DNA of 32,742 nt from the NCBI GenBank assembly GCA_945870155.1, contig CAMBSB010000040.1, positions 1 to 32,742 on the forward strand. The letters are read 5' to 3'. The position numbers and the translations under genes are program-made. Of this stretch, positions 27,763 through 30,937 are shown piece by piece. The stretch is from Paludibacter jiangxiensis (GTDB taxonomy: Bacteria; Bacteroidota; Bacteroidia; Bacteroidales; Paludibacteraceae). The notes below the pieces were generated by a model that searched no databases, was not told where the DNA came from, and was given only the letters and a program-made list of their open reading frames with translations. Within the stretch, counting starts at the first letter, position 1. Each line of letters starts with the position of its first letter.

Positions 27763-28956
27763 ATGAATAAACTATTCATCTTTACCGCTTTTTTGCTTTT
27801 AAGCATTGCTATTTCAGCACAAAAAGATACAGCCAAAGTTGATACAACATTTCGTTTCACAACCATTAAAGAGAATAAAATAACTCCAGTTAAAAATCAG
27901 GCTAGCACGGGAACATGTTGGAGCTTTTCCGCATTGGGCTTTTTTGAAGCAGAATTGTTACGTTTGGGAAAACCTGAAGTTGATTTATCCGAAATGTTTG
28001 TGGTTCGTCATAATTATTCCGACAAGGCTGATAAATATGTAAGAATGAACGGTAAAATTAATTTTGCCGAGGGCGGTTCCTTTTACGATGTAATTTATGC
28101 CTTGAAAAATTATGGTATTGTGCCTGATTCATTGATGAATGGCTATAATTACGGAGAAGATAAACATCGACATGGCGAATTGGATGCCTTGACAAAAGCT
28201 TATGTGAATGTGATTGTGTCTAATCCTAATAAAAAGTTGTCAACCGCATGGAAAGCCGGATTTGAAGGTATATTGGATGCATATCTGGGCAAAATCCCTA
28301 CTGAATTTACAGTGAAAGGTAAAAAGTATAATCCTCAAACTTATGCCCAGTCATTGGGTTTAAATATGGACGATTATGTATCACTTACTTCGTTTACTCA
28401 TCACCCGTTCTATTCAAAATTTATTATCGAAATTCCGGATAATTGGCGTTGGGAAGAATCGTATAACTTACCACTAGACGAATTTAAACAAGTGTTTGAC
28501 AATGCCATTGATAAAGGTTTTACAATTGCCTGGGGTTCGGATGTAAGCGAAAAAGGCTTTACACGCAATGGTGTTGGAGTTAATCCTGAAGTGAAATTAA
28601 ACAACCTTCCCGGTTCCGACCAGGCTAAATGGTTGGACATATCACAAAAAGATATGGAAGAAAAAATTTACAAAGTAAAAGGACCACAACCCGAAGTCAA
28701 AGTAACTCAGGAAATTCGTCAACAAAGTTTTGATAATTATCAAACCACCGATGATCATGGCATGGTGATATTTGGCACTGCAAAAGATCAAAATAATACA
28801 AAATATTATTTGGTAAAAAACTCATGGGGTACCGATAACAAATACAAAGGAATTTGGTATGTAAGCGAGTCATTTGTAATGCACAAAACAATCAATATAA
28901 TTGTACATAAAGATGCTGTCCCTAAAGAAATTTTGAAGAAATTAGGCATAAAATAA
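27763..28956 (+). CDS. Exported C1-family peptidase (bleomycin hydrolase/aminopeptidase C-like)
   Basis: A 397-residue papain-fold cysteine peptidase with a signal peptide (FLLLSIAISAQ, cleavage near residue 20). The catalytic triad is intact: Cys52 in GTCWSFSALG, with the oxyanion Gln46 in KNQAS; His332 in DDHGMVIFG; and Asn353 in KNSWG. The insertion between the Cys and His regions and the overall length fit the bleomycin hydrolase/PepC group (C1B), aminopeptidases that usually form hexamers. The signal peptide indicates action in the periplasm or outside the cell, unlike cytosolic PepC. The C terminus (KLGIK) is short, and family members use this tail as part of the active-site cleft. It follows pepD, suggesting joint peptide breakdown, and is closed by a strong terminator. 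Confidence 0.92.
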   Translation: MNKLFIFTAFLLLSIAISAQKDTAKVDTTFRFTTIKENKITPVKNQASTGTCWSFSALGFFEAELLRLGKPEVDLSEMFVVRHNYSDKADKYVRMNGKINFAEGGSFYDVIYALKNYGIVPDSLMNGYNYGEDKHRHGELDALTKAYVNVIVSNPNKKLSTAWKAGFEGILDAYLGKIPTEFTVKGKKYNPQTYAQSLGLNMDDYVSLTSFTHHPFYSKFIIEIPDNWRWEESYNLPLDEFKQVFDNAIDKGFTIAWGSDVSEKGFTRNGVGVNPEVKLNNLPGSDQAKWLDISQKDMEEKIYKVKGPQPEVKVTQEIRQQSFDNYQTTDDHGMVIFGTAKDQNNTKYYLVKNSWGTDNKYKGIWYVSESFVMHKTINIIVHKDAVPKEILKKLGIK

Positions 28957-29027: not shown

Positions 29028-29061
29028 TTTGAAAATTTATCCAAAATATTTTTTATCTTTG
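29028..29061 (+). promoter_or_regulatory. Promoter of the rSAM/lipoprotein operon
   Basis: TTTG (29028-29031), 22 bases, then TATCTTTG (29054-29061), a full TAnnTTTG match. It begins right after the previous terminator, so the cassette is an independent unit with a leader of about 75 bases. Confidence 0.68.
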
Positions 29062-29143: not shown

Positions 29144-29395
29144 ATGAAAACAAATTCATTACGAAATTTACTTTTGAAAATATATGACAAATTACTAGTT
29201 GCCATACTTTTTTCAGGCATTTTCATAAGTTCTTGTGAAGAACCAGAGCCTGTTCCTGAATATGGCATTGTTCCATTGTATGGAGTGCCAACCGCTATAG
29301 ATCAAAAACATAAGATAAATACTTCAGAACAGGATACTGTTGTTATAAATAATGACCAAGTTCAATTGAATTATAAACAATCAAATGAATTATGA
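29144..29395 (+). CDS. Short lipoprotein of the rSAM/lipoprotein cassette
   Basis: An 83-residue lipoprotein. The ATG at 29144 is preferred to the in-frame TTG at 29138. The signal peptide ends in a lipobox with Cys31 (FISSC), then comes an acidic/proline stretch (EEPEPVPEYG) and the motif LYGVPTA at 45-51. The remaining 30 residues are polar with no recognised domain. The signal region (YDKLLVAILFSG) resembles that of the next gene (FDKVILTLLGFV), and LYGVPTA resembles its EYGTPNA, so this looks like a shortened paralogue without the following Ig-like domain. The stop overlaps the next start (ATGA). Family knowledge suggests such lipoproteins are partners, and possibly substrates, of the radical SAM enzyme encoded downstream; the modification is unknown. 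It is a very small gene, but the operon structure supports it. Confidence 0.68.
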   Translation: MKTNSLRNLLLKIYDKLLVAILFSGIFISSCEEPEPVPEYGIVPLYGVPTAIDQKHKINTSEQDTVVINNDQVQLNYKQSNEL

Positions 29396-29835
29396 AACTG
29401 ATAAAATGTTTTGACAAAGTTATACTTACTCTTTTAGGTTTTGTAGGTTTGCTAAGTGCGTGTGAAACCGTAGCAGAATATGGAACACCCAATGCAGATT
29501 TTGTTATAAAAGGTACTATTACAGATAGTATTAGTTCCTCAAAAGTTCCAAATATTCGTGTTATTCGAACTGATGTCAATAATCCAATGCGTAAAGATAC
29601 CATTTATAGCGACTCTAAGGGAAATTACCAATTCACGTTTAATAGTTTTGCATATGAAAAACCTGAATTTGATATTAAAGTTGAGGATATTGATGGTACT
29701 CTGAATGGTGGTGAATTTATTGCCCAACAAGCAAGAATTTCTATAATAAATACCGACTGGGTTAACTCCGGGGATGACGATTGGTATTATGGTAAAGCTA
29801 TTAAAACAAGGGACTTTAAACTACTAAAAAAATAA
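29392..29835 (+). CDS. rSAM-associated putative lipoprotein
   Basis: A 147-residue lipoprotein that I match to the putative lipoprotein family of the rSAM/lipoprotein system (TIGR04134, from memory). The lipobox ends at Cys24 (GLLSAC), followed directly by the hallmark ETVAEYGTPNADF (25-37). Residues about 38-115 look like a carboxypeptidase-regulatory/transthyretin-like beta-sandwich (IKGTITDSISSSKVPNIRV and SDSKGNYQFTF), and the end contains DDDWYYGKA. Its start overlaps the stop of the short lipoprotein by four bases, and the radical SAM gene starts 22 bases after its stop. It is probably anchored in the periplasm or outer membrane. What the enzyme does to it, if anything, is not known to me. 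Confidence 0.82.
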   Translation: MKLIKCFDKVILTLLGFVGLLSACETVAEYGTPNADFVIKGTITDSISSSKVPNIRVIRTDVNNPMRKDTIYSDSKGNYQFTFNSFAYEKPEFDIKVEDIDGTLNGGEFIAQQARISIINTDWVNSGDDDWYYGKAIKTRDFKLLKK

Positions 29836-29857
29836 TTACCCTCCTATAAACAAAGTA

Positions 29858-30937
29858 GTGAATTTAAAGAAAAAAATCATACTCACCCTTTTTAAGCAAC
29901 ATAAACGCAATCAAAGTAAGTTGCATGAGCTAACATATTTATTTTGGGAGTGTACTTTGAGATGCAATTTAAACTGTATCCATTGCGGAAGCGACTGTTC
30001 AAAAGAAGCTTTGACACCTGATATGCCATTGTCCGACTTCTTGAATGTATTGGACAATATCGCTCCACACGTTAATAAACATAAAACTATGGTTGTGATT
30101 ACAGGTGGTGAGCCTCTAATGCGAATGGATTTGGAAAAATGTGGTGAAGAAATACAAAAACGCGAATTTCCATGGGGCATGGTTACCAATGCATTTGCCT
30201 TAACTCCGCAACGATTGCAAAATCTCCTAAATGTTGGTTTACGTTCTATAACTGTAAGCTTTGATGGTTTAAATCCTGAAACTCATGATTGGTTTCGTGG
30301 GAAAAAAGGGTCTTGGCAAAAGGCTTTAAATGCCATATCAAATATTACACAAACACCTGATTTAGTTTACGATGTAGTTACTTGTGTAAATAAAAAAAAT
30401 ATTAACGATTTAGAAGCAATTCGAGATTTACTTGTTAGTATTGGGGTTAAACGTTGGCGATTATTTATTATTTTTCCAAAAGGCAGAGCCAAAGAAAATC
30501 CTCTACTTCAACTTACAAATAATGAATTTGTTCGTTTAATGGATTTTATTAAACAAACTCGAAAAGAAAACGTTATACATACTTCGTTTGGCTGTGAAGG
30601 TTATTTGGGCGATTATGAACTGGAAGTACGTGATACGCCTTTTTTTTGTCAGGCAGGAATTCATATTGGTTCTGTATTGGTAGATGGGTCAATTAGTGCG
30701 TGTCCCAGCTTAAGAGGCGATTATATTCAAGGAAATATATATCAGGATGATTTTTGGAGCATTTGGAACAAGCGATATAAAAACATGCGTAACAGAACCT
30801 GGACACGAACCGGTAAATGTGCTGAATGCAAAGAATATAGATATTGTGAAGGAAATGGTTTGCATTTACGAGATGAAAAAACAACTGAAGTCCTTTGTTG
30901 CCATTTTGAAAAATTGCAGCATAAAAACTATATTTAG
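29858..30937 (+). CDS. Radical SAM/SPASM enzyme of the rSAM/lipoprotein system
   Basis: A 359-residue enzyme starting at GTG 29858. The radical SAM CxxxCxxC motif is Cys36, Cys40 and Cys43 (RCNLNCIHC), flanked by Cys32 and Cys47. The SAM-binding GGEP is at 83-86. The C-terminal SPASM domain carries Cys264, Gly277-x4-Cys282, Cys321-x2-Cys324-x5-Cys330 and Cys347/Cys348, enough for auxiliary iron-sulfur clusters as in anSME and peptide-modifying enzymes. I match it to TIGR04133 (rSAM enzyme of the rSAM/lipoprotein system), from memory. SPASM enzymes usually modify peptides or proteins; the natural candidates are the two lipoproteins encoded just upstream, but the enzyme lacks a signal peptide, so modification would have to precede export. 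No RRE-like domain is obvious. No terminator is visible before the V-ATPase gene. Confidence 0.9.
   Translation: MNLKKKIILTLFKQHKRNQSKLHELTYLFWECTLRCNLNCIHCGSDCSKEALTPDMPLSDFLNVLDNIAPHVNKHKTMVVITGGEPLMRMDLEKCGEEIQKREFPWGMVTNAFALTPQRLQNLLNVGLRSITVSFDGLNPETHDWFRGKKGSWQKALNAISNITQTPDLVYDVVTCVNKKNINDLEAIRDLLVSIGVKRWRLFIIFPKGRAKENPLLQLTNNEFVRLMDFIKQTRKENVIHTSFGCEGYLGDYELEVRDTPFFCQAGIHIGSVLVDGSISACPSLRGDYIQGNIYQDDFWSIWNKRYKNMRNRTWTRTGKCAECKEYRYCEGNGLHLRDEKTTEVLCCHFEKLQHKNYI

Follow-up and report, generated by a model that had tools for sequence, protein, structure and literature searches.

In a stretch of 32,742 nucleotides from Paludibacter jiangxiensis (assembly GCA_945870155.1, contig CAMBSB010000040.1; the whole stretch is referred to as the window), a compact plus-strand cassette encodes two lipoproteins and a radical S-adenosylmethionine (SAM)/SPASM enzyme of family TIGR04133, and both lipoproteins carry X-Tyr-Gly (XYG) sites behind their predicted lipidated cysteines. 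XYG recurs next to TIGR04133-like enzymes in lipoproteins with otherwise unrelated bodies, in Bacteroidota, Fibrobacterota, Spirochaetota and contigs labelled Neomarinimicrobiota, and is very probably a site that is acted on in some way. On balance we favor the reading that the TIGR04133 cassette encodes a splicease-like enzyme acting at XYG on lipoproteins instead of on precursors of ribosomally synthesized and post-translationally modified peptides (RiPPs). The cassette consists of the following features:

29144 to 29395 (ATG at 29144, stop at 29393 to 29395), plus strand: short lipoprotein of 83 aa (gene 1), an open reading frame (ORF) with a lipobox, putative minimal substrate

29234 to 29236, plus strand: codon of the predicted lipidated Cys31 of the short lipoprotein (lipobox FISS/C; invariant in nine of nine short lipoproteins)

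29258 to 29266, plus strand: XYG site 1 of the short lipoprotein (E-YG-IVP; YG in nine of nine)

29276 to 29284, plus strand: XYG site 2 of the short lipoprotein (L-YG-VP; YG in nine of nine)

29392 to 29835 (ATG at 29392, stop at 29833 to 29835), plus strand: TIGR04134 lipoprotein of 147 aa (gene 2) with signal peptide, XYG linker and beta-sandwich (84.6 bits against a cut-off of 39.8)

29461 to 29463, plus strand: codon of the predicted lipidated Cys24 of the TIGR04134 lipoprotein (lipobox LLSA/C; 57 of 57 homologs)

29476 to 29484, plus strand: XYG site of the TIGR04134 lipoprotein (E-Y-G, then T-P) in the linker that leads to the domain (Y30 and G31 each conserved in 55 of 57 homologs)

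29858 to 30937, plus strand: TIGR04133 radical SAM/SPASM enzyme of 359 aa with CX3CX2C at residues 36 to 43 and SPASM cysteines (554.5 bits against a cut-off of 425)

Genes 1 and 2 overlap by 4 nt (ATGA), and the enzyme gene starts with GTG 22 nt past the end of gene 2. The pair of families that the initial annotation had named, TIGR04133 and TIGR04134, is thus borne out by both model scores.

To relate the motif to the enzyme, 95 TIGR04133-like loci were compared, 80 of them from named organisms and 15 others, including the two loci of the window genome; duplicates L137, L139 and L141, as well as L150, which holds no enzyme, are left out of the counts. A strict XYG is present in a same-strand, lipoprotein-like ORF within 2.6 kb upstream of the enzyme in 90 of the 95 loci, the other five being L034, L059, L089 and L096, with at most 488 bases upstream, and L083, which contains a run of N; the count is again 90 of 95 if any YG is accepted. 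On the cassette strand, 164 of 270 lipoprotein-like ORFs carry the strict motif, compared with 5 of 188 on the opposite strand. A stricter lipobox rule left 95 distinct upstream lipoproteins, a number equal to that of the loci by chance; here and in the genome sample below, ORFs with a mature part under 30 aa were dropped. Of these 95, 62 have YGxP no more than 60 aa from the Cys, against 1 of 91 other lipoprotein-like ORFs from the same loci (Fisher p 1e-23), and YG is found in 87 of 95 against 13 of 91 (Fisher p 9e-29); both p values are only indicative, because the loci include many near relatives, Fibrobacter above all, and 57 of the 95 lipoproteins, again with many near relatives, form one homologous cluster. 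In 400 kb of the window genome, none of 30 lipoprotein-like ORFs has YGxP near the Cys and three have YG alone. Among 395 genomes of the class, TIGR04134 scores above its cut-off in four (G000, which is the window genome, G146, G211 and G378), all of which belong to the six with TIGR04133.

The motif that the initial annotation had described in both proteins (LYGVPTA and EYGTPNADF) therefore exceeds chance in these controls, and its close association with the enzyme argues well for a putative recognition or modification site, as had been proposed. The similarity of the two signal regions (YDKLLVAIL and FDKVILTLL) proved both real and general, as a signal-peptide n-region composed of an aromatic residue or L/H, then D, G or K, then Lys and a hydrophobic residue is found in 53 of the 95 upstream lipoproteins, compared with 1 of 30 in the genome sample. 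Over 466 YG sites, incidental YG pairs included, X is Leu in 34%, Glu in 20%, Met, Ala and Lys in 7% each and Asp in 6%; after YG comes Val in 43% and then Pro in 44%, with P-L-Y-G-V-P as the commonest context. YGxP was discarded as the signature, since many Fibrobacter, Neomarinimicrobiota and C-terminal sites have no Pro at that position, and the core is therefore X-Y-G. A separate sub-type places YG directly after the lipidated Cys (CYGTPQDF, CYGVP; L014-L019, L140, L142-L145, L149, L151 and L177), so that X would be the lipid-bearing Cys itself.

The bodies that carry the motif differ widely. BLAST grouped the 95 upstream lipoproteins into 14 clusters, ten of which contain the strict motif, the other four being single ordinary neighbors. 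In 36 Fibrobacter loci, YG is present in 123 of 126 lipoprotein ORFs, with 305 copies against a mean of 70 and a maximum of 92 in shuffles, and the strict motif in 115; YG heads the ranking of residue pairs there and in the small clusters as well. At Fibrobacter loci such as L057, L063, L064, L073 and L081, as many as 11 lipoprotein genes lie in an array no more than 4.5 kb from a TIGR04133-like enzyme; most of them contain one to seven YG copies, separated by Ser-rich linkers, and some loci have a second copy of the enzyme. Four Fibrobacter lipoproteins with Ser-rich bodies that were tested match neither TIGR04134 nor any Pfam family above its cut-off. In four Bacteroidia loci, short lipoproteins bear the motif at their C-terminal end (..IAMYGVRP..). 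None of eight other partners tested (these four from Fibrobacter, two from Neomarinimicrobiota, one with a C-terminal motif and one short Paludibacter protein) matches TIGR04133 or TIGR04134.

The long lipoprotein, in which EYGTPNADF spans residues 29-37, belongs to the TIGR04134-like cluster of 57. There, the motif Tyr and Gly are each conserved in 55 and the Pro in 51 members, compared with 57 for the lipidated Cys and two domain glycines and 56 for one domain Asp; in the ranking of residue pairs, W..G, WY and IR stand above YG. The expectation that YGxP would be the most conserved segment thus holds in so far as it ranks among the most conserved positions, but it is not the single most conserved one. 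YG is invariant in a 45-row TIGR04134 alignment, a set made of 44 of 56 references plus L177 that excludes the YG-less members from L023 and L044. AlphaFold2, run with a 44-row alignment, yielded a model with a mean predicted local distance difference test (pLDDT) score of 90.7, comprising a signal-peptide helix, a linker and a beta-sandwich from residue 34; the linker with Cys and XYG (residues 21-30) has a mean pLDDT of 67. The model would place XYG in a tether that is open to an enzyme acting before export. Fold searches gave weak matches: the best are intradiol dioxygenases (E 1e-4, TM no higher than 0.54), and carboxypeptidase D ranks fifth with its transthyretin-like domain (TMt 0.75), in agreement with a sub-threshold Pfam match to CarboxypepD_reg. 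The Ig-like domain of the initial annotation is hence loosely right as regards the modeled beta-sandwich. Many TIGR04134-type lipoproteins carry another XYG towards their C-terminal end (such as APMYGVPSAPF; L024, L026, L028, L030, L038-L043, L045 and L047-L050), which the protein in the window lacks. In G211 (loci L150 on contig C2 and L149 on C266), the enzyme and a pair of TIGR04134 matches, of which at least one has EYGSP, are on different contigs, and substrates may thus be encoded away from the enzyme, contig breaks allowing.

The short lipoprotein contains two XYG copies, only one of which, LYGVPTA at residues 45-51, had been named before. Neither NCBIfam nor Pfam yields a family match for it at E<=1, and it thus stays below the TIGR04134 cut-off. 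The gene is conserved in nine loci, with 25-54% identity to the window copy, and those copies that were translated are intact; in the alignment of the nine proteins, the mature part is invariant at the Cys, P36, P44 and both YG pairs. With a profile built from them, 7 of 48 genomes of the genus gave a strong match (E < 1e-20) and 33 gave a match at E<=0.1; most of the weaker matches fall on signal peptides of other proteins or on gene 2, whose N-terminus is reached weakly (E 7e-9 to 0.02). Of the 48 genomes, 15 hold TIGR04133 (14 above cut-off), and these include all seven with a strong short gene, each on the same contig and at most 950 bases from the enzyme. None of the 33 genomes devoid of the enzyme has a strong match (p 9e-5, only indicative), yet 8 of the 15 enzyme-bearing genomes lack one as well, which makes the short lipoprotein an optional partner. 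At L055, L056 and L062, from bins whose Neomarinimicrobiota labels are unchecked, no same-strand lipoprotein-like ORF was found other than a short XYG lipoprotein. The short lipoprotein is a real, recurring partner of the enzyme.

The enzyme matches both Pfam Radical_SAM and SPASM, and its model (mean pLDDT 91.2) adopts the SPASM radical SAM fold, with one helix ahead of the barrel and no domain resembling a RiPP recognition element (RRE) in the model secondary structure. Fold searches ranked SuiB first and placed SkfB, PqqE and anSME high, all with peptide or protein substrates, along with DesII and BlsE, which have other substrates. In three trees, drawn from overlapping nested subsets of 37 rows, TIGR04133 and TIGR04103/TIGR03913 rows share one side of a branch (support 97/91, 100/98 and 99/96), joined by an Agathobacter row where it was included. 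A Gly follows the third cluster Cys in 23 of 23 TIGR04133 and 3 of 3 splice-clade rows, compared with 0 of 7 others. Among the 60 of 200 matches listed from a plasmid collection, the best family-named one outside TIGR04133 is a Nostoc TIGR04103 enzyme (853 bits for that family, against its cut-off of 725); an Agathobacter enzyme without a family name is a higher-scoring match. Kinship of the TIGR04133 enzyme with the splicease clade is supported but not settled.

The splicease PlpXY turns XYG into an alpha-keto-beta-amino residue by excising C8H9NO (-135.0757 Da); its natural sites are MYG and LYG, the splice tags tested include sequences of the GPIRPLYGLPI type, and transferable tags resemble PIRPLYGLPI or PIRPGYGLPI (PMC10533398). 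PlpX, a member of IPR026482, partners with the RRE protein PlpY (PMC11002830). For the TIGR04133 cassette, we infer the XYG modification, the tyramine-excision chemistry, the order of events and the inhibitor role as follows. The cassette would provide a cytoplasmic SPASM radical SAM enzyme together with its two lipoprotein substrates, which would be recognized prior to export, probably by way of the signal-peptide n-region (aromatic-[D/G]-K-hydrophobic) and the X-Tyr-Gly site. The enzyme would act at each XYG, and the likeliest reaction is that tyramine is cut from X-Y-G and the chain rejoined, converting X into an alpha-keto-beta-amino residue with the same mass loss per site. Export and lipidation would come afterwards, leaving the ketoamide in a flexible tether between the lipid anchor and the domain; the long lipoprotein would display one site on a beta-sandwich, the short one would be a bare tether with two. 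Since spliceotides, which carry such ketoamides, are called protease inhibitors in PMC11117315, the likeliest role would be that of a surface-tethered protease inhibitor or another covalent trap. More tentatively, and at somewhat less than even confidence, TIGR04133 could represent a second, PlpY-independent lineage of protein spliceases, in which signal peptides of lipoproteins replace RiPP leaders and backbone ketoamides end up in surface-lipoprotein tethers across about four phyla.

Several findings weigh against the splicease reading. The window enzyme scores 123.8 bits for TIGR04103 against a cut-off of 725, less than for TIGR04053 (144), AhbD (135) and NirJ2 (130), and TIGR04103 is the family that we take to correspond to IPR026482. 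A fourth tree, to which four long, poorly aligned radical SAM ORFs from the window genome had been added, did not recover the clade (30% of bootstrap trees); it is noisy, with end branches of 2 to 7 changes per column, and all trees rest on few reference rows, namely 7 to 11 outside rows and one of TIGR04103, with AhbD, ACGX, Scm and GeoRSP absent. A tblastn search of 99 loci with the Nostoc PlpY-like protein found no PlpY-like stretch (best E 3.9), nor is such a family among the 14 largest clusters of neighboring ORFs of at least 70 aa, with a diverged, smaller or distant gene being possible. The tested lipoproteins have no Nif11 or nitrile-hydratase-like (NHLP) leader and match no leader family. 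Glu is common as X at TIGR04133 loci, and no case of EYG splicing was met in published work; a literature search likewise found no experiment on the TIGR04133 family. Eleven of the 126 Fibrobacter ORFs carry no strict motif, and two TIGR04134-like lipoproteins beside the enzyme (L023:5548-5976 and L044:5581-5994) lack an N-terminal YG, although each adjoins a YG-bearing lipoprotein and they are possibly unmodified paralogs. Finally, in FtsZ tests only two constructs were spliced and most inserted tags were not (PMC10533398), so that XYG alone is insufficient for PlpXY.

The same data bear on three other explanations. The enzyme may modify XYG by different chemistry, such as a Tyr crosslink to the residue after Gly (a three-residue cyclophane), Tyr C-alpha/C-beta cleavage or a thioether, a possibility that we regard as rather unlikely. 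SuiB, SkfB, PqqE and anSME, all among the high-ranking solved folds, make crosslinks, thioethers or formylglycine, and the residue after YG is Gly at only 2% of the 466 sites, so that a C-beta is nearly always available there. However, Val, Ile, Pro (9%), Thr, Cys, Ala, Ser and Asp all occur at this position, which suits a spectator better than a reacting residue, and a fixed Y-G with variable neighbors is the splicease pattern (PMC10533398). It is improbable that XYG is a docking or recognition tag only, with another residue modified or with lipoproteins that bind or serve the enzyme unmodified. A motif in a sequence is no proof of modification, and conservation of the n-region points to further recognition elements; yet mature invariants of the nine short lipoproteins are limited to YG, two prolines and the lipidated Cys, the tandem copies, up to seven per Fibrobacter protein, resemble substrate sites, and copies at both ends of several TIGR04134 proteins look unlike a single docking tag. 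We give very little credence to a motif unrelated to the enzyme, reflecting common lipoprotein ancestry or an export or surface signal, with the short gene being a truncated long gene. The weak match of the short profile to gene 2 would fit a shared ancestry of signal and tether, but the near absence of YGxP from other lipoprotein-like ORFs of the loci and its absence from the genome sample, the far C-terminal position of the site in four short lipoproteins, and an intact short gene that is conserved in nine loci and stands alone in three Neomarinimicrobiota-labelled ones all speak against it.

Upstream of the cassette, one further feature was recorded:

29028 to 29061, plus strand: candidate Bacteroidota-type promoter TTTG-N22-TATCTTTG, a weak pattern match

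This is the sole match near the cassette, and the pattern occurs seven times in the window against 4.9 expected, which is not above chance; scans for sigma-70 promoters and terminators gave nothing exceeding shuffles. Of the initial view of overlapping genes under one promoter, the overlap stands, whereas a single promoter is plausible only. Directly upstream lies a C1-type cysteine peptidase gene (27763-28956) with an N-terminal signal-like stretch. Ketoamides are able to inhibit C1-type cysteine peptidases, but this peptidase was rejected as an inhibitor target, being absent from the recurrent neighbor clusters of TIGR04133-like loci. Downstream of the cassette are genes with weak matches to V-type ATPase subunits and a DUF2764 gene. 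TIGR04133 occurs at one more locus of the window genome, accompanied there by one EYGVPNADY lipoprotein and by no short one; a gene beside it (L001:3550-4050, G000:C153) resembles a nitrogenase iron protein by eye. To look for a third gene that recurs, ORFs of at least 70 aa within 4.5 kb of the enzyme were clustered at the 95 loci. Of the 14 largest clusters, the top two are lipoproteins, one is a second enzyme copy, and the remainder, at 7 to 10 loci each, appear general, locally syntenic or antisense.

A full-text literature search returned no paper naming TIGR04133 or TIGR04134, and in the portions of the literature surveyed nothing was recognized as describing XYG lipoproteins. The pair is already cataloged, as hypothetical: both models have the type hypoth_equivalog, neither specifies a site or chemistry, and no substrate site or reaction is given in the sources consulted. 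A near-fixed X-Tyr-Gly tag in unrelated lipoproteins beside the enzyme makes the question of the reaction testable. If tyramine splicing is true, bacterial surfaces would display backbone ketoamides, which as electrophiles are able to inhibit proteases, and a splicease independent of a RiPP leader would be useful for protein labelling. If a second splicease lineage exists, ribosomal beta-amino acids would be routine in cell-envelope proteins, including the Fibrobacter arrays with their many genes and sites, and the 83-aa lipoprotein would be a bare tethered warhead.

Compared with known systems, the cassette agrees with the TIGR04133/TIGR04134 pair in NCBIfam in that the enzyme and the long lipoprotein pass both cut-offs and the gene order is that of annotated Treponema and Parabacteroides records; the short lipoprotein, which matches neither family, sets it apart. 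For the window enzyme, AhbD, NirJ and TIGR04053 exceed TIGR04103 slightly in bit score, but NirJ-type and TIGR04053 rows fall on the opposite side of the TIGR04133/TIGR04103 branch, in trees that held no AhbD row, and AhbD and NirJ act on tetrapyrroles. The TIGR03913 GDL-motif system (DUF1843 peptides) is sister to the TIGR04103 row in the tree. Among five GDL peptides seen, two have PYG near the N-terminus and two LYA or MYA, a hint of possible action at a Tyr-Gly-like site in this sister clade as well; unlike the lipoproteins, the GDL sequences are small peptides without a lipoprotein signal, and three of the five have no YG near the N-terminus. Peptides of this kind, with PYG or LYA/MYA, were observed beside TIGR03913-type enzymes at L180:2287-2742 and L176:4156-4869. 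From PlpXY, the cassette differs in that its enzyme lies below the TIGR04103 cut-off, which no protein of the whole window genome exceeds, and in that TIGR04133 substrates are lipoproteins with signal peptides, some with a folded domain. Because of this score and the negative PlpY and leader searches, we do not file the cassette as a PlpXY member. Both systems nevertheless share a SPASM radical SAM enzyme, as indicated by Pfam and the fold model, and X-Y-G sites with Leu and Met among the X residues across loci and a P-L-Y-G-x-P context. The Nif11 precursor encoded beside the Nostoc TIGR04103 enzyme ends in SIALYGLPPELF, much like the IALYGVP, IALYGAP and IALYGPP of lipoproteins at TIGR04133-like loci.

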